Origin: Ptychodera flava
Lineage: Eukaryota > Hemichordata > Enteropneusta > Ptychoderidae
DNA: 64,000 nt
NCBI RefSeq assembly: GCF_041260155.1
Contig: NC_091947.1
Location: forward strand, 30,864,028 to 30,928,027
Direction: 5' to 3'
Below the pieces are notes generated by a model. That model saw nothing but the letters and a program-made list of their open reading frames with translations. It was not told the DNA's origin and did no database searches. Position 1 is the first letter of the stretch. Every line of letters starts with the position of its first letter. Below, piece by piece: positions 421 to 37,750 of this stretch. Position numbers and translations under genes: made by a program.

Positions 421-3400
421 GTTTGTCTCTTCTTGCAACGTTACCAACGCAACAACATTCCACCAATACTACCTGTGTAGCCATCCCCCAACACCGGAGA
501 GTTTCATCAATCCAGACAATCTGGAGATTTTACCGAAACAAATCCAGGCGGCCAGAGATGTCGTCAATCGTTACAGACCTGGTTCTGCCTTGTGGCTGGG
601 AGAAACAGGGACTACGTGCTCAGCTGGGTCCTCATCATTATCAAAAACCTACGTCGCCGGTTTCATGTAAGCATCCCAAAACATGAAATGAGACTGTGAT
701 AAAAGGAACCTCGATGTATAATGTTTATTACATTTCCAACTAACATGTATGCTTCCGTTGCCGAAGGTATTTTTGAAACTTGCTGCAAATTGAACGATTT
801 TCAGATATTCATTTTAATCATAAACAGTCGCCATTGTGAGCTTATTACTAACCTCAATCCACCTGTGCAACATTTTATCGTAGCATACTTAAGTACAATA
901 CTGTTTATCTTTTGCGCATGCCTGTTCCTTTGTTAAGATAGAATGCGCCTGTGGGACAAATATTCGGACTCTCAAATTTTTACTATTCTTTTCTGATCTG
1001 CCACTCTTTGGGGCTTATGTAAAAAGAAAAATCGAAAAGTTCATGTGTCCCCATAGAGTAAACCACGGTCGTGGAGTGACCGAGAGTTAACAGAGATGGC
1101 GGCCATTTTGAATTTCAAATATCGGTAAATGTAAGGTTATTTGTTTCTCTAGTTCAAAATTGTGCACGGTGACTCCTGATTTTTAATCGTGATTAAATTT
1201 TGGTGAAAGAATTGTTGAAAATTTCTTTTAGGAAAGTTTGAGTGAAAGTTTAAGTCTAACTTTCGAGGCGCATACTACCTTAATAGCTGTGCGAGGCTAT
1301 ACTTTCAAGACCATGTGCCTATCTGCAAATGTATTTATCACATCAGAAAAATCAAGGGTGACTTCAACACAGTTTCTCCGAATCATGTAAAGGCGATAAA
1401 CAAGGCAAACCATACAAAATAGGTCTTTCCTGAAGCCGCCGGTGATCACGCTCATATTGGCTTACATATTGATCCTCCAATGAAGTCAACACATTATCAA
1501 CTCAAAGATGTTGACGTCAAGACCGAGCATTGACAGCGTGTTCGCAAATTATCGCATAGACTTGGAGCAGTAAACGAAAATGTCAAATGTTACCGAGTCA
1601 ACATTTGGGAAACCGCCGGGGTTCACCCACCCTGCAAGGTGCGATGCAGTTGAGTATTCACACTGTCAGTAAGGTCGTATCTGCGATTGCTTGCCTTAAA
1701 AATCAATTTGTGATGACTGCTTCTGGAATTTGAATGGCATCGATGACAATTCATTAACTATCGACGAAATGCAGTAATAGAGCTTGAAGGGTCAGAAGCT
1801 GTAACTTTTGGTGATTTTTTCACTATTTTTGTTCTGAATGTCAACTACATTTTCTTTTTTCTACTCCCCGAAGCATGCCAAGATACACGGTATTCAGCTT
1901 GTCAACTCAACGTTTGCATGATTCGTAATTGTGATTTAGGTCCGAACTACAATTAATTCTATAGTGCTCGCAAACAATAACAGTGGATTTCACGCGTATA
2001 GACGCTGTTTTTACAAGCTACATGCTTCGGGGAGTAGAGAAATAACTTTTAAATTGCATAGAGAACTAGTGAAAAAAAGCCATTCAAACTTACAGATTCA
2101 TGCCCCCCAAAAACAAACACGTATACAGGAAGCAATCTAAACAAACTGAATATATTAAAGTGAATTTTTCCATTTTAGGTGGCTTGACAAGCTCGGCCTT
2201 GCTGCGACAAACGGTCTCAATATTGTAATTCGTCAAACGTTTTGTTGTGATCATCAAGCAATGGTTGAGAGTGACGCCACACCCTTACCGGCAAGTTTTG
2301 TAGCATAAAGACTATTGCAGCCACACATGTAAAAGAGAATTTTCCTTTCTTGTTAGGTACATGGACAAATTAGGCATAGCTGCCTCCCAAGGCCTAGACG
2401 TCGTTGTGCGTCAAACGTTTGTCGGGGGTGGCCAGGGAACGGTTGATGACGATCTTACCCCTTTGCCGGCAAGTAAATTCTTTCAGAGAATTTCGATTTA
2501 ATAGAGAGTGTTCCTGTCAAGTTTGGCCCGTGGCAGATGAAACAGAATTGGGTATACAAATGAAATCTAGACTAAGTGAATTGAGAGAGAGCAAGGCGCG
2601 ATTTTGCCTTCCGTACACAGAAATACATGTCTCCAATGAACAATGTAAGTCTCACTTCGATCCCTTTGACCCGAGGATGAATCATTGAGCATGCAACGAG
2701 TCTTTCCAGAATATTGTAATGAAGATTTGCCTGCATGGTGTCAATGACAGCTTACACATCTTGACCCGTTCACAACATCATCACACCAAATTCTGGAAAT
2801 ACTCTACAAAATGGTAGCCAGATTTAGAAAATGGATTTCAAGGAATATACTAGTAATCACTCTCACCAAATGGAATATCTTTCAAACTTAATCTTACGGG
2901 CTCATTACCCTATATAACCGAAAGCAAGTCCTAAAATTAAAGAAATTAACACATTACAGTGCACAAGAAGGAAAATGACGCGTCAAGCTGTGATAAATAA
3001 CTTGAGAGGCCTTTGCCAATATCATGAGTGTGTGTTTGTTCTCTCATCACTCCAATTCTCGCATTTCCTTAGGACTACTGGTTATCGGTGTTATATAAGA
3101 GGCTGGTCGGACACAGAGTTCTCTCGACGAAGATTGCCACAAAAATTGGATTTGAGAAATTCGATGCAGGCGTGCGAGTCCGGGCATATGCACACTGCAC
3201 CAGAACTACCGGGTACGATATTTTCCTTTAAGGATTCTGTGATCACTTGCGAGACACATCTGATATAAAGAGATGTAAGCTTATAATATGGGCTCGAATA
3301 CAGACTTTAGCATTTGATGTTTCGGTAAAATCTTATCCTTTCAAATCATATATCACATCTACGACTGTTCTTGTATTTCAGGACAAACTATACAGCTGGT

Positions 3401-4567
3401 TCTGTCACGGTCTTCATGATGTCTCTACTGAGTAACGAGACAGTGACAGTGTATCTAACTGGTGCCCTCAGTCATTCTTCCGTAGATAAGTATGTACTGT
3501 CAGCTCATGAAGGAGAAGGGATCACGTCAAGGTAGCTATTCCATGGCATATACAGGGATGCCTATTTATGTGTGTATGTGTGTGCATGCATGCATCTATG
3601 TATCTATCCATGAATGTATGTTGGGTTGGGTTGGACGGGTGGGGTGATGGATGCATACATGCATTCATCCACCTACTCGCCAACCCATCCATCCACACAC
3701 ACACGTACTCACACATATTTACTTAAGTTTGTATGTACACAGTGGTATGCACATGCTGACGTCGTTTAATTTCGTTGAAATGTCCTGCAGAAATACTGGT
3801 ACACAAAAATGAAAAACCCTTTAGACGAAGCAATGTTCAGATAAACTGAAGTTTTCTAGACAAGAAGCGGCGCAAGATTCGGAGAGAGTACCAGTTCGTC
3901 ACTCGACATTGTAAGATTCTACCTCCGTGTATCGCTCGCATAGAATATCAAAATCACCGATACAACCACACATACAAAACTAGACTCGAAGACGCGCCGA
4001 TAATCTTATGTATTTACACAAGATTGTAGGTTGTCCGGTCAGTATCCGTACCGACATGCAACGATGGACACGTCATCACGAAGTAGAATATCTTGTTAAA
4101 TGTCGATCTATAGGATTAAAAAGAAGATTTGCACATGTTCATCTGTCCCTCGGCTTATCATACCTGCACTGTAAATATAGTAACTGAAACTTGAAACTGA
4201 CGTGCTCTATTTCACTATCTGTAAAATTGTATCCACATCGCATCGAAGAACATGGATCATCTGAATACCAAATTATCTTCACTAAGACCGACTCATCTTT
4301 GCTATGACTTCATCGAAAACCCATACCCATTAATAGTCTGTACCCTTCACTATCGAGTTTTCATTTATGAATCCAATGTATTATTTTCCTTCCTTTTTCA
4401 CAAACAGGCGAGTAGACCTAAATGGTCAAGTCCTACAGCTAGTGGACAATTCAACCTTACCAGAGTTATCGCCACAGCGCATGGGGCCTTCAGATATCAT
4501 CCAGCTACCGCCCCTGTCGATGGGATTTTTTGTTCTCACCGACGTCAAAGCAGCAGCGTGTTTGTAA
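421..4567 (+). CDS. HPSE: Heparanase-like endo-beta-glucuronidase (GH79), 3' half, partial
   Basis: Family role: GH79 heparanase cleaves heparan sulfate chains in the lysosome and extracellular matrix. Exons seen: 421-666, then 2179-2290 or 2357-2468, then 3073-3212, 3382-3531 and 4408-4567 (TAA). Exon 421-666 encodes a motif like the human HHYYLNG (FHQYYLCS) and WLGET, whose Glu (602-604) matches the human nucleophile E343, then AGFM. The alternative exon encodes (W/M)DKLG...RQTF...TPLP. Exon 3073 begins DYWLSVLYKRLVG, exon 3382 holds SSVDKYVL, and exon 4408 holds RVDLNGQVLQLVD and ends FFVLTDVKAAACL, all in the order of human heparanase. The proton-donor Glu and N-terminal half must lie upstream of the window. 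Intron phases agree at every junction. Identification is by remembered family sequence; whether the enzyme is active is not known. Confidence 0.93.
933..1283 (+). mobile_element. TTAA-ended MITE, family 1, in heparanase intron
   Basis: Starts TTAAGATAGAATGCGCCT and ends AGGCGCATACTACCTTAA, imperfect ~18-bp inverted termini whose outer 4 bases are TTAA, as in piggyBac-type target duplications. A closely similar copy is at 7221-7575; degraded or truncated copies are at 11795-12000 and 17820-18160. No coding capacity. Confidence 0.8.
1801..2055 (+). mobile_element. MITE, family 2, in heparanase intron
   Basis: Begins GTAACTTTTGGTGATTTTTTC and ends with an inverted AAATAACTTTTAAA. It shares its ends and internal AAGCA(T/C)G(C/T) blocks with 12483-12793 in gene A intron 2. 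No ORF. It ends about 120 bp before alternative exon a. Confidence 0.65.
2179..2290 (+). other. Heparanase alternative exon, version a
   Basis: A 112-nt exon: one nucleotide completes the Met codon of the upstream exon, followed by 37 codons starting WLDKLGLAATNG and ending DATPLP. The acceptor is ttttag at 2173-2178. The donor at 2291 reads gcaagt, a GC rather than GT donor. Compared with human RQVFFGAGNYHLVD, this version has RQTFCCDHQAMVE, so the glycine-rich substrate loop is replaced. Confidence 0.85.
2357..2468 (+). other. Heparanase alternative exon, version b
   Basis: A second 112-nt exon with the same phases as version a, 66 bp downstream. It encodes YMDKLGIAASQG and ends DDLTPLP. 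It keeps a glycine-rich loop (RQTFVGGGQGTVD) closer to the human GAGNY loop. The donor at 2469 is again gcaagt. Joining version a to version b shifts the frame and reaches a TGA within version b, so only one of the two can be used per productive transcript. Confidence 0.87.
3560..3715. repeat. Simple-sequence tract (TGTG / CATC-like) in heparanase intron
   Basis: Runs of TGTG, CATG, ATCTATG and ATCCATCC with a short inverted character (catccatc... against ...gatggatg). The apparent minus-strand ORF over it is a repeat artefact. Confidence 0.8.
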
Positions 4568-7575: not shown

Positions 7576-7964
7576 TAGTGTGAAATCAGACATTTTCCCA
7601 CATACCTCTTGCGCTCCAGGTCTATGCTTGGTTGAATTGCAGAAACAGAGTTCTGATTCAGAACTCCATTATCAATCCTCCTGGTCATGGATTTGACCAC
7701 GTCTTGCAATAACCTATCAAGATGACTGATTTCGTCTAGGAGATCCGACACTTTTACAGAATGCGAGGAGACCCTTCAAATGGATATCGAAGGGATGCTT
7801 GGAAAATCATATCAGGCACGCGGTATGCATAAAATATCGAACGCAGTCTTATCAATACACTGCTGATAAAGACATGCCATATCTGTTCATTGTTAAATAC
7901 TTTCATGTATAGATGAATTTAATTTTGCTGATACCGAGTTCCTACGGTGGCCCAAAACTACCTG

Positions 7965-8996
7965 TTCTCCGCATTCAAAGTCTGCGTCGCAATCAAATGT
8001 TTTTCTCTCACATATGTCTCTGCATTCAAAGTCTGCGTCGCAATCAATTGTTTTTCTCTCACATATGTCTCCGCATTCAAAGTCTGCGTCGCAATCAAAT
8101 GTTTTTCTCTCACATAAGCCTATGTCTCCGCATTCAAAGTCTGCGTCGCAATCAATTGTTTTTCTCTCACATATGTCTCCGCATTCAAAGTCTGCGTCGC
8201 AATCAAATGTTTTTCTCTCACATATGTCTCCGCATTCAAAGTCTGCGTCGCAATCAAATGTTTTTCTCTCACATATGTCTCCGCATTCAAAGTCTGCGTC
8301 GCAATCAAATGTTTTTCTCTCACATATGTTCTGCATTCAAAGTCTGCGTCGCAATCAATTGTTTTTCTCTCACATATGTCTCCGCATTCAAAGTCTGCGT
8401 CGCAATCAAATGTTTTCTCTCACATAAGCTATGTCTCCGCATTCAAAGTCTGCGTCGCAATCAATTGTTTTTCTCTCACATATGTCTCCGCATTCAAAGT
8501 CTGCGTCGCAATCAATGTTTTTCTCTCACATATGTCTCCGCATTCAAAGTCTGCGTCGCAATCAATTGTTTTCTCTCACATATGTCTCCGCATTCAAAGT
8601 CTGCGTCGCAATCAAATATTTTTCTCTCACATATGTCTCCGCATTCAAAGTCTGCGTCGCAATCAAATGTTTTTCTCTCACATATGTCTCCGCATTCAAA
8701 GTCTGCGTCGCAATCAAATGTTTTTCTCTCACACGTCTCCGCATTCAAAGTCTGCGTCGCAATCAAATGTTTTTCTCTCACATATATCTCAGCATTCAAA
8801 GTCTGCGTCGCAATCAAATGTTTTTCTCTCACATATGTCTCCGCATTCAAAGTCTGCGTCGCAATCAAATGTTTTTCTCTCACATATGTCCCCGCATTCA
8901 AAGTCTGCGTCGCAATCAAATGTGTTTCTCTCACATATGTCTCCGCATTCCAAGTCTGCGTCGCATTCAATTGTTTTTCTCTCACATATGTCTCCG
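7965..8996 (+). repeat. 51-bp tandem array, left arm, 20 units
   Basis: The unit contains CATTCAAAGTCTGCGTCGCA, then AATCAA(A/T)TG, TTTTTCTCTCACAT and ATGTCTCCG. Variants include AAATG against AATTG and an extra 'aagcctatg' block in some units. Because 51 = 17 codons, several frames stay open on both strands, giving long spurious ORFs (up to 385 codons). Confidence 0.95.
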
Positions 8997-9357
8997 AGGT
9001 ATGCCTCAGTGTACGTTATTCCGCGAAGCATAATTTCTATCGAACAGCGCTCTCAGACGGTCGCTATTGACAACGACGAACATTGTATCAAGTTATTTTC
9101 AATAGATTATCGATCGAAAATTTGTTTGGACGCCGCTTGTGCCGGGCGCTCGTGTGTTGAGGTCACGTCATAAACATTTCCACAATAACCCATATATTGA
9201 CTTATACACTTAAATATCAACATTGAAGGTATCCGTTGGTTTCCTGTACTGAAATTAAATCGACGACAATTTTTTTAGTTTTGGTGATACTTTTACGTAC
9301 GTTTCGGCACATTTTGGCGCACCTCGGCGTAGTTTGGCGCCATTGTGAACGGAAGAC

Positions 9358-9424
9358 TACAACAACCTGACTGGTATTTGGGTCTGATAATTTAATACAG
9401 ACCAAATACCAGTCAGGTTGTTGT
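9358..9424. repeat. Central hairpin of the foldback element
   Basis: TACAACAACCTGACTGGTAT plus TTGG faces its reverse complement across ~20 bases, with about one unpaired base. It lies in the 255-bp spacer between the long arms. Confidence 0.85.
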
Positions 9425-9954
9425 AATTTATACCAAATTTTGGCGAATATTAACTATGAAAATCCCAGTAAACTGCAAGAATAACACAGAACAGAGGCGA
9501 ACGGGCGTAGAGTCTCCACTGTAATCGTGCAGTGAACGTTATCGATCGATATCCTTTTGTCCGAAATTGATACATTGTTGTCTCGCTCACTCGCGTGTAG
9601 TCCCCCCCCGTTCACAATGGCGCCAAACTACGCCGAGGTGCGCCAAAATGTGCCGAAACGTACGTAAAAGTATCACCAAAACTAAAAAAATTGTCGTCGA
9701 TTTAATTTCAGTACAGGAAACCAAGATACCTTCAATGTTGATATTTAAGTGTATAAGTCAATATATGGGTTATTGTGGAAATGTTTATGACGTGACCTCA
9801 ACACACGAGCGCCCGGCCCGTCCAAACAAATTTTCGATCGATAATCTATTGAAAATAACTTGATACAATGTTCGTCGTTGTCAATAGCGACCGTCTGAGA
9901 GCGCTGTTCGATAGAAATTATGCTTCGCGGAATAACGTACACTGAGGCATACCT

Positions 9955-10490
9955 CGGAGACATATGTGAGAGAAAAACAATTGAATGCGACGCAGACTTT
10001 GAATGCGGAGACATATGTGAGAGAAAAACATTTGATTGCGACGCAGACTTTGAATGCGGAGACATATGTGAGAGAAAAACAATTGATTGCGACGCAGACT
10101 TTGAATGCGGAGACATAAGCTTATGTGAGAGAAAAACATTTGATTGCGACGCAGACTTTGAATGCGGAGACATATGTGAGAGAAAAACAATTGATTGCGA
10201 CGCAGACTTTGAATGCGGAGACATAAGCTTATGTGAGAGAAAAACATTTGATTGCGACGCAGACTTTGAATGCGGAGACATATGTGAGAGAAAAACAATT
10301 GATTGCGACGCAGACTTTGAATGCGGAGACATATGTGAGAGAAAAACAATTGATTGCGACGCAGACTTTGAATGCAGAGACATATATGAGAGAAAAACAT
10401 TTGATTGCGACGCAGACTTTGAATGCAGAGACATATGTGAGAGAAAAACATTTGATTGCGACGCAGACTTTGAATGCGGAGAACAGGTAG
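9955..10490 (-). repeat. 51-bp tandem array, right arm, 10 units (inverted)
   Basis: Reverse complement of the left array, containing TGCGACGCAGACTTTGAATG. Ten units are counted, two with the 'aagcttatg' insertion. Copy number differs from the left arm, as expected for unequal exchange within arrays. Confidence 0.95.
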
Positions 10491-10576
10491 TTTTGGGCCA
10501 CCGTAAGTTTCCAGTTATGGATACTCCTCTACGGTGGTGTATACATAGCTTGTTACTTAACTTTGACTAGAACGCA

Positions 10577-21609: not shown

Positions 21610-22220
21610 TTAACTTCTTGGACTGACAAAATAAGAATCAGATATCATATCTCGAATCAATCTTGAAGATGATTTTCTAAGTGAAAGCGACAAATTCTGA
21701 CCATGCACCATAACGGCATTTTCAGGTCGCACACAAACTGCTTGATGAATTTTCAGGTATTTAGGTATAGCAGATATTAGCCCTTGCCACTGTAAAAAGT
21801 TAATTTTGTTTATCCCGAGATTTCTAAAGAAATTCCAGTCTTTAAAATTGCCTTCAGAGGTAAAAATATCTGCGATATAAACAATCCCCAGTTTGTAGAA
21901 GTCATTTAAAAATATACTTTTCCCATTAATCAAAATATTTTTGTTATTCCATATTATTTCAAAAGGTGGGGGTAAATCATTCTGTGAAAAGGAACTCCAG
22001 ATTTGTAGTATTTCTTTCAAAAAAGGAGGAAATTTTACACCAAGTGCCTTTAGTGAGTAAGTGCACTTAAAAATAAAAGGTCCACCAACTGGTTTCAAAT
22101 AGTAATCAAAGACCAATTTCCAAGGATGAAAACGTGAGAAAAGGTAGTGTTTGACCCAGGTCACTTTTAAACCCTTATGCAGAGCAACTATATCCAACAT
22201 TCTGAGTCCACTTGGCCTAT
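21610..22220 (-). pseudogene. Non-LTR retrotransposon fragment, region after the reverse transcriptase
   Basis: A 196-codon open frame on the minus strand, preceded in frame by GLR. It begins SGLRMLDIVALHKGLKVTW and continues WKLVFDYYLKP..., IWNNKNILINGKSIFL and LQWQGLISAIP. This order (GGL.M.D....LK..W, then W-rich, then IWNN..I..GK) is characteristic of the C-terminal part of LINE ORF2 proteins. The RT and endonuclease parts are absent and a stop follows. Clade not assigned. No flanking poly(A) or target duplication was recognised. Confidence 0.75.
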
Positions 22221-34626: not shown

Positions 34627-37600
34627 ATGCATGCTTCAGTAACAATGGTCGAAAATGCTCAAAGCATTATACACCTGTTTGCATGGACACTCCTGCGCAT
34701 CTCTCTTAGTGTGCTATGGCTGTGACTTCTACGTTTTCCCAGTGGTTTTTCATCTTTCTATGCTATCACTAATTGATTTAAGTTGCCTAATCTAAATTTT
34801 TTGCAGGAACTGCATTTTGAGTATGCTGAGTCACCATGTGTCACCTGGTTGCACGGACACTCCGGCGCATCTCTCTTAGTGTGCTATGGCTGTGACTTCT
34901 AAGTTTTCCCAGTGGTTTTCATCTTTCTATGCTATCGCCAACTGATTTAAGTTGTCTAATCAAATATTTTTGCAGAATCTGCATTTTTAGTATGTTGAGT
35001 CACCATGTGTCACCTGGTTGCACGGACACTCTGGTGCATCTCTCTTACTGTGCTAAGGCTGTGACTGCTAAGTTTTCTCATTGGTTTTCATCTTTTTATG
35101 CTATCACTAATTGATTTAAGTTGTCTAATCTAAATTTTTTGCAGGAACTGCATTTTGAATATGCTGAGTCACCATGTGTCACCTGGTTGCACGGACACTC
35201 CAGCGCATCTCTCTTAGTGTGCTATGGCTGTGACTTCTAAGTTTTCCCAGTGGTTTTCATCTTTCTATGCTATCGCCAACAGATTTAAGTTGTCTAATCA
35301 AATATTTTTGCAGAATCTGCATTTTTAGTATGCTGAGTCACCATGTGTCACCTGGTTGCACGGACACTCTGGTGCATCTCTCTTACTGTGCTAAGGCTGT
35401 GACTGCTAAGTTTTCTCATTGGTTTTCATCTTTTTATGCTATCACTAATTGATTTAAGTTGTCTAATCTAAATTTTTTGCAGGAACTGCATTTTGAATAT
35501 GCAGAGTCAGAATGTGTCACCTGGTTGCACGGACACTCCGGCGCATCTCTCTTAGTGTGCTATGGCTGTGACTTCTAAGTTTTCCCAGTGGTTTTCATCT
35601 TTCTATGCTATCGCCAACAGATTTAAGTTGTCTAATCAAATATTTTTGCAGAATCTGCATTTTTAGTATGCTGAGTCACCATGTGTCACCTGGTTGCACG
35701 GACACTCCGGCGCATCTCTCTTACTGTGCTAAGGCTGTGACTGCTAAGTTTTCTCATTGGTTTTCATCTTTTTATGCTATCACTAATTGATTTAAGTTGT
35801 CTAATCTAAATTTTTTGCAGGAACTGCATTTTGAATATGCTGAGTCACCATGTGTCACCTGGTTGCACGGACACTCCGGCGCATCTCTCTTACTGTGCTA
35901 AGGCTGTGACTGCTAAGTTTTCTCATTGGTTTTCATCTTTTTATGCTATCGCCAACTGATTTAAGTTGTCTAATCAAATATTTTTGCAGAATCTGCATTT
36001 TTAGTATGCTGAGTCACAATGTGTCACCTGGTTGCATGGACACTCTGGTGCATCTCTCTTACTGTGCTAAGGCTGTGACTGCTAAGTTTTCTCATTGGTT
36101 TTCATCTTTTTATGCTATCACTAATTGATTTAAGTTGTCTAATCTAAATTTTTTGCAGGAACTGCATTTTGAATATGCTGAGTCACCATGTGTCACCTGG
36201 TTGCACGGACACTCCGGCGCATCTCTCTTAGTGTGCTATGGCTGTGACTTCTAAGTTTTCCCAGTGGTTTTCATCTTTCTATGCTATCGCCAACAGATTT
36301 AAGTTGTCTAATCAAATATTTTTGCAGAATCTGCATTTTTAGTATGCTGAGTCACCATGTGTCACCTGGTTGCACGGACACTCTGGTGCATCTCTCTTAC
36401 TGTGCTAAGGCTGTGACTGCTAAGTTTTCTCATTGGTTTTCTTCTTTTTATGCTATCACTAATTGATTTAAGTTGTCTAATCTAAATTTTTTGCAGGAAC
36501 TGCATTTTGAATATGCAGAGTCAGAATGTGTCACCTGGTTGCACGGACACTCCGACGCATCTCTCTTAGTGTGCTATGGCTGTGACTTCTAAGTTTTGCC
36601 AGTGGTTTTCATCTTTCTATGCTATCGCCAACAGATTTAAGTTGTCTGATCAAATATTTTTGCAGAATCTGCATTTTTAGTATGCTGAGTCACCATGTGT
36701 CACCTGGTTGCACGGACACTCCGGCGCATCTTTCTTACTGTGCTAAGGCTGTGACTGCTGAGTTTTCTCATTGGTTTTCATCTTTTTATGCTATCACTAA
36801 TTGATTTAAGTTGTCTAATCTAAATGTTTTGCAGGAACTGCATTTTGAATATGCTGAGTCACCATGTGTCACCTGGTTGCACGGACACTCGGCGCATCTC
36901 TCTTACTGTGCTAAGGCTGTGACTGCTAAGTTTTCTCATTGGTTTTCATCTTTTTATGCTATCGCCAACTGATTTAAGTTGTCTAATCAAATATTTTTGC
37001 AGAATCTGCATTTTTAGTATGCTGAGTCACCATGTGTCACCTGGTTGCAGGACACTCTGGTGCATGTTCTTACTGTGCTAAGGCTGTGACTGCTAAGTTT
37101 TCTCATTGGTTTTCATCTTTTTTATGCTATCACTAATTGATTTAAGTTGTCTAATCTAAATTTTTTGCAGGAACTGCATTTTGAATATGCTGAGTCACCA
37201 TGTGTCACCTGGTTGCACGGACACTCCGGCGCATCTCTCTTAGTGTGCTATGGCTGTGACTTCTAAGTTTTCCAGTGGTTTTCATCTTTCTATGCTATCG
37301 CCAACAGATTTAAGTTGTCTAATCAAATATTTTTGCAGAATCTGCATTTTTAGTATGCTGAGTCACCATGTGTCACCTGGTTGCACGGACACTCTGGTGC
37401 ATCTCTCTTACTGTGCTAAGGCTGTGACTGCTAAGTTTTCTCATTGGTTTTCATCTGTCTATGCTATCGCCAACTGATTTAAGTTGTCTAATCTAAATTT
37501 TTTGCAGGAACTGCATTTTGAGTATGCTGAGTCACAATGTGTCACCTGGTTGCACGGAGTCATGTGGTACATCTCTCTTTCCCTTATAAGGCTTTGTCAT

Positions 37601-37750
37601 CTAAGTTTCTCCTTGGTTTTGCTCTTTTTATGCTATTAAAAAGTGATTCAAGTTTTGAAATAAAAATTTTATGCAGGAATCTGCTGTTAGATCATGCTGA
37701 GTCAGAATGTGTCAACTGGTTGCACAGAGACTTTGCAGTGGTATAAAACT
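34627..37750 (+). repeat. Dimeric satellite array, 338-bp unit (2 x ~169 bp), about nine units
   Basis: Two monomer types alternate. Type A begins GAACTGCATTTTGAATATGC and has GCTATGGCTGTGACTTCTAAG; type B begins AATCTGCATTTTTAGTATGC and has GCTAAGGCTGTGACTGCTAAG. Type B 61-codon frames recur exactly every 338 bp (34929, 35267, 35605, 35943, 36281, 36619). Some positions have two A/B hybrids (35880, 36900). Monomers at both edges (34627-34730, 37530-37750) are strongly diverged while the centre is homogeneous, the classic pattern of unequal exchange. Every monomer ends in a CTAAT...TTTTTTGCAG motif like a 3' splice site. Confidence 0.95.

Follow-up and report, generated by a model that had tools for sequence, protein, structure and literature searches.

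Can one heparanase-like gene give two forms of its enzyme by exchanging a single internal exon? The question is raised by a 64 kilobase (kb) stretch of the acorn worm Ptychodera flava (assembly GCF_041260155.1, contig NC_091947.1, positions 30,864,028 to 30,928,027; 37% GC), hereafter the window, the start of which falls inside a GH79 heparanase-like gene, with the 3' half of that gene at 421-4566 on the + strand. The answer proposed here is that two neighbouring exons, a and b, are a tandem-duplicated, mutually exclusive pair giving two enzyme forms, and a probability of about 0.8 is given to this reading.

The presence of a GH79 heparanase-like gene with such a pair, as claimed in an initial annotation of this DNA, is borne out: the translation scores against PF03662 (GH79) alike with exon a or with exon b, the GH79 N-terminal domain and the heparanase fold are both found, and the a-form is identical across 268 amino acids (aa) to the public protein P0009, 'heparanase-like isoform X2 [Ptychodera flava]'. 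P0009 came from a length-corrected protein search of 177 proteins, the best 120 of the 177 being used, and it agrees with the borders drawn for the exons, the GC donor after exon a and a message that leaves out b, with exon a coding in the public annotation as isoform X2 without exon b. Its sequence cluster, made at 90% identity, comprises 2 sequences, and because a b-form would differ at 17 of 546 residues and fall into that 90% cluster, the second member is most simply, and presumably, isoform X1 with exon b. The parts of the gene that the argument needs are these, in nucleotides (nt) of the window:

421-666, + strand: constitutive upstream exon e0, carrying the nucleophile motif GETGTTCSAG (P0009 E339, equal to human E343), donor gtaagc
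2152-2168, + strand: likely branch-point region for the acceptor of a, an 82% repeat of 2327-2343 at a spacing of 175 nt
2179-2290, + strand: alternative exon a, 112 nt, 37 codons, loop FCCDHQAMVES, included in P0009
2291-2356, + strand: intron between a and b, 66 nt, GC-AG
2327-2343, + strand: likely branch-point region for the acceptor of b, a direct repeat of 2152-2168, with no A above 2/4 on loose yUnAy
2357-2468, + strand: alternative exon b, 112 nt, 37 codons, loop FVGGGQGTVDD, nearest to the Glandiceps and Saccoglossus orthologues
2444-2446, + strand: TGA met in b when a is joined to b, in the frame of joined a+b
2469-2474, + strand: GC donor of exon b, GCAAGT, the same six bases standing at 2291-2296 after exon a
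3073-3212, + strand: constitutive downstream exon d1, beginning DYWLSVLYKRLVG
3382-3531, + strand: downstream exon d2, holding the TGA at 3417-3419 that is reached when both a and b are skipped
4408-4566, + strand: final coding exon d3, with the stop codon directly after the last residue

Exons a and b each supply 1 nt that finishes a Met codon, followed by 37 codons, and end at a codon boundary, so that the pair is one of adjacent homologous exons equal in length and phase, exactly as the initial annotation had placed it. The two agree at 66/112 nt and 20/37 aa, their flanks (40-66 nt) reach 32-43% ungapped identity, and when the window is searched by tblastn with the two forms, each exon finds the other, at E 5e-9 and 7e-10. 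The differences fall 13, 8 and 25 on codon positions 1, 2 and 3 (Fisher p 1e-4 for the third against the first and second together), with a silent proportion of differences (pS) of 0.78, past correction, and a non-synonymous divergence (dN) of 0.39. Neutral simulations at equal DNA divergence kept 20/37 residues in 0/5000 runs started from b and 1/5000 from a, which argues against a decayed spare copy. A chance open frame, considered for either exon, is ruled out by the tblastn matches, the codon-position pattern and the simulations; a piece of some further gene copy within the window is ruled out because no match outside the gene has E <= 1, and tblastn likewise found no third copy of the exon in the window, all matches outside the gene having E > 1.

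Neither joint inclusion nor joint skipping yields a full-length product. Joining a to b meets the TGA inside b (2444-2446), and skipping both breaks the frame, ending at the TGA in d2 (3417-3419), both as predicted beforehand. The stops lie 312 nt (a+b) and 112 nt (double skip) upstream of the last exon junction, and as both are more than 50 nt before it the two mRNAs are predicted targets of nonsense-mediated decay (NMD). The stronger claim that exactly one exon must be used stands in so far as only one-exon mRNAs code for full-length protein, but the frame alone does not prevent a+b splicing.

By vertebrate rules the 66-nt intron is probably too short to allow splicing from a to b, although the acorn-worm threshold may differ. 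The adenines 17-49 nt upstream of exon b all lie within 48 nt of the donor of a. In the part of PMC5740500 that deals with enforcement, frame incompatibility and a donor-to-branch-point spacing of <50 are two of the modes counted in human mutually exclusive clusters, and a section of PMC7969005 discusses such a spacing limit for OGDH. The 17-nt stretches before the two acceptors form a direct repeat and are 82% alike, therefore the duplication probably took in the acceptor region.

The donors of a and b both read CCG/GCAAGT, the slash marking the exon end, whilst the remaining three donors of the gene in the window are GT. According to the text of PMC7242645 on this class, GC-AG introns account for about 0.8% of splice junctions in human protein-coding genes, their donors are on average weaker, and they are associated with alternative splicing. 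A common ancestral GC donor is the simplest origin of both, and their being kept in both copies despite saturated silent sites is no more than a hint of selection. Use of the GT found 4 nt past each GC donor (gttttg after a, gtaaat after b) was rejected as it would shift the frame, and the PLP-DYW join of X2 fits only the GC donor of a. Long docking and selector base-pairing was also set aside as unconvincing, with just four inverted pairs of 10-12 nt in 2050-2500, three joining exon a with exon b (one at both donors) and one a palindrome inside b. The donor contexts 2284-2294 and 2463-2473 are complementary at 10/11 positions, because the context of b, TTGCCGGCAA, is a palindrome. The RBFOX-like TGCATG occurs twice in 667-3072 (1915, 2732), with about 1 expected and 27 in the window, and no significance is drawn from it.

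How old the pair may be can be judged from other acorn worms. In a tree of 13 chosen proteins P0009 forms a 100/100 clade with P0010 (Glandiceps talaboti) and P0011 (Saccoglossus kowalevskii), and exon b matches these two orthologues at 28/37 and 25/37 residues, exon a at 21/37 and 19/37. Exon a carries Trp-Leu...Leu as in most aligned heparanases, with Trp-Met...Ile in the Glandiceps and Saccoglossus proteins and Tyr-Met...Ile in exon b, and this pattern favours a duplication before the split of Ptychodera, Glandiceps and Saccoglossus. Three placements of exon a were compared (37 residues, 11 rows), of which the one before the Saccoglossus split was best (approximately unbiased test, p 0.78, 0.29 and 0.25), none being rejected, and this 37-residue test is not decisive. 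In the three enteropneust proteins GETGT(T/S)CSxG stands where GETSSAYGGG is usual, with Gln replacing Tyr391, and Saccoglossus also has a canonical paralogue, P0003, with GETSSAYGGG. Among 243 proteins GETGT is found in P0009, P0010 and P0011, and in P0156 as GETGTD. On these features the three form a lineage-specific GH79 subfamily, the substrate of which is uncertain.

What would the exchange alter in the protein? The swapped segment is made up of one helix, one strand and the loop that corresponds to human residues 387-393, beside the -1/-2 subsites. The role in substrate contact given in the initial annotation to human G389 and Y391 agrees with the literature, as the portions of PMC6892829 and PMC12961742 that list substrate or inhibitor contacts name both Gly389 and Tyr391, and a passage of PMC10785800 names Tyr391. 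A glycine-rich loop in b (FVGGGQGTVDD) and CCDHQ in a (FCCDHQAMVES) are indeed present, and of the two residues named, Gly389 separates the forms (Asp in a, Gly in b and in 52/52 other aligned sequences) but Tyr391 does not, being Gln in both. In those 52 rows Gly387 is kept in 48, Gly389 in 52 and Tyr391 in 51; exon a departs at all three, having Cys at the Gly387 position.

The catalytic glutamates, human Glu225 and Glu343, have counterparts in P0009 E216 (NEP motif) and E339 (GET motif). E216 is upstream of the window and known from P0009, E339 is in exon e0, and both are common to the a- and b-form, as is Gln379 (human Gln383), which is present in both exons; a predicted model of the a-form retains the barrel fold. 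The heparanase substrate contacts are not retained as a set, as the positions of Gly349, Gly350, Gly389 and Tyr391 read Ser, Ala, Asp (a) or Gly (b), and Gln, and for this reason the product is called heparanase-like. The loop after the nucleophile is ETGTTCSAG, compared with human E343-TSSAYGGG, and the Glandiceps and Saccoglossus orthologues have a similar one. The suggestion that one gene gives two heparanases thus survives as a frame-enforced pair with a differing loop, but heparanase identity is not assured because of the altered loop after the nucleophile, and the enzyme may act on another glycosaminoglycan than heparan sulfate.

The explanation proposed is that in a GH79 heparanase-like gene of an enteropneust a single internal exon was long ago duplicated in tandem, together with its acceptor region and GC donor. 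This would have produced a mutually exclusive pair with one exon per productive mRNA set by the reading frame, a+b and double-skip transcripts running into early stops and being likely NMD substrates. The short intron would probably be a second means of enforcement, as a branch point at least 50 nt from the donor of a could not fit under vertebrate rules. The two forms would share their catalytic glutamates and swap the helix-strand-loop segment, likely giving two enzymes that differ in what they prefer at the subsite which in human heparanase is in contact with the sulfated -2 glucosamine, where the a-form would tolerate sulfate less. That one gene gives two glycosaminoglycan hydrolases of different sulfation or substrate preference, from a pair predating the split of the acorn-worm lineages compared and with the GC donors acting as regulated weak donors, is a tentative proposal, possible but doubtful.

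Three other explanations have to be weighed against this. One exon alone might be used, the other being an old, rarely spliced relic that is open by chance. The departures of exon a at strongly conserved loop residues (Gly387, Gly389 and Tyr391) and the weaker average donors of GC-AG introns (the general account in PMC7242645) would suit such a relic, yet X2 uses a and b is the copy resembling the orthologues, therefore neither exon looks like one. The neutral simulations above, with at most 1/5000 runs keeping 20/37, tell against it also. When one copy was left free to change and the other was constrained (starting from b), no load giving 19-24 third-position differences kept 20 residues with no stop in more than 0.27% of its 1500 runs, and although low loads (10-16 differences) resembled the data in 16-58% of runs, these mismatch the 25 third-position differences observed. 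We regard the relic as quite unlikely. The pair might instead be chiefly a switch of expression, with a+b or double-skip transcripts made on purpose and destroyed by NMD, and the a and b proteins near equivalent. The stops of both wrong splices more than 50 nt before the last junction would allow it, and the cluster counts excerpted from PMC5740500 give exons of a length not divisible by three in 377/629 human mutually exclusive clusters (60%), with double-inclusion reads in some. However, 17/37 residues differ, reaching the substrate loop, and a pure switch needs no two diverged coding copies, which leaves this explanation unlikely.

The a-form might also be catalytically dead or lectin-like, binding or sequestering substrate. 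Two changes in the cleft loop, of Gly387 to Cys and of Gly389 to Asp, point that way, and the family includes an 'inactive heparanase-2' (the label of match P0114), but the catalytic pair lies in shared exons, Gln379 is in both a and b, and the a-form model, as predicted, keeps the barrel; such a form is unlikely. Returning to the mutually exclusive pair with two enzyme forms, several observations weigh against it. A strong branch-point match is missing from the a-b intron, no A exceeding 2/4 on loose yUnAy. Many invertebrates splice introns of this length, and the steric step may therefore fail. The low-load runs of the one-copy-free model fit and are not rejected. The gene model that was compared is of the a-form, and for exon b use in mRNA is an inference. 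A profile search (123 aa) recognised no relative of exon a in other species among the best 120 of 129 matches, none of which bears an acorn-worm label and many of which carry no species label. Each exon retains just 14/19 of the positions that are >=90% conserved elsewhere. Asp at Gly389 depends on gap placement relative to the vertebrate loop, which is one residue longer; in gap-free comparison with equally short loops (the Saccoglossus paralogue, Antedon, Amphiura) a still has Asp for the invariant Gly. The substrate, and even activity, is uncertain from sequence, with Tyr391 and the GGG loop lost in all 3 clade members seen.

In Caenorhabditis elegans exons 9 and 10 of let-2 are mutually exclusive. 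Intron 10 of that gene, as recounted in part of PMC7242645, resembles the present case in being alternatively spliced from a GC donor, and there replacement of GC by GT abolished regulation. The closest parallel in an enzyme is coq-2 of C. elegans and other rhodoquinone-making animals, where exons 6a and 6e, both 134 nt, are likewise of the same length, not divisible by three, and swap a part of the core of the enzyme close to its substrate; there substrate switching was demonstrated by deleting exons in C. elegans, in the results given in PMC7434440, whereas for the heparanase-like gene switching is a prediction, the enzymes are unrelated and the exons are 112 nt. The pair is also like the human clusters, as these are outlined in PMC5740500, in being neighbouring homologous exons of the same frame, but those are validated by reads, whilst the P. 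flava pair is known from one gene model and sequence, and both its donors are GC. Unlike human HPSE (GH79) and the leech hyaluronidase (7EYO), the product has Gln for Tyr391 and Cys-Ser-Ala for Tyr348-Gly-Gly, and has the segment in two versions, with a loop one residue shorter than that of HPSE. Splice variants of human heparanase (not heparanase-2) in the account excerpted from PMC6892829 are an exon-5 deletion and a truncation via intron-5 sequence, with no exon swaps among them. Oyster alternative oxidase was set aside as a parallel, the duplicated exon described in the available part of PMC5589949 being terminal and differently spliced. Exon pairs of the mutually exclusive kind that alter the substrate of an enzyme are therefore already known (coq-2), with the heparanase-like pair a further case, and the gene model itself is already in public annotation. 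In the open-access literature searched, judged mostly by titles, no report was found of a mutually exclusive exon pair in heparanase, nor of a glycosidase of matrix breakdown whose substrate is switched by splicing.

Elsewhere in the window two arrays of 51 base pair (bp) units stand in opposite orientation within 7943-10505, at 7966-8996 (about 20 copies) and 9955-10482 (about 10 copies). Both are inside a large inverted repeat with arms such as 8834-9132 and 9819-10117, 99% complementary, and the region resembles a foldback-type element with internal repeats. A long satellite-like array of period 169/338 bp (18 or 9 copies) occupies 34672-37732. On the - strand at 21610-22200 a 196-aa open frame, with no Pfam match at E 0.1, gives the impression of a retroelement protein fragment.

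If the reading of two hydrolases is true, the gene would encode a matrix-degrading glycosidase with its substrate switched through splicing. The pair would offer a natural tool for dissecting GH79 specificity, with 17/37 residues different around the -1/-2 subsites, and the GC at both donors is an uncommon detail open to direct test as a possible regulatory feature. Should the two forms both be produced and have different activities, splicing of a single gene, and not gene duplication, would decide the sulfated chains that are cleaved during matrix remodelling.
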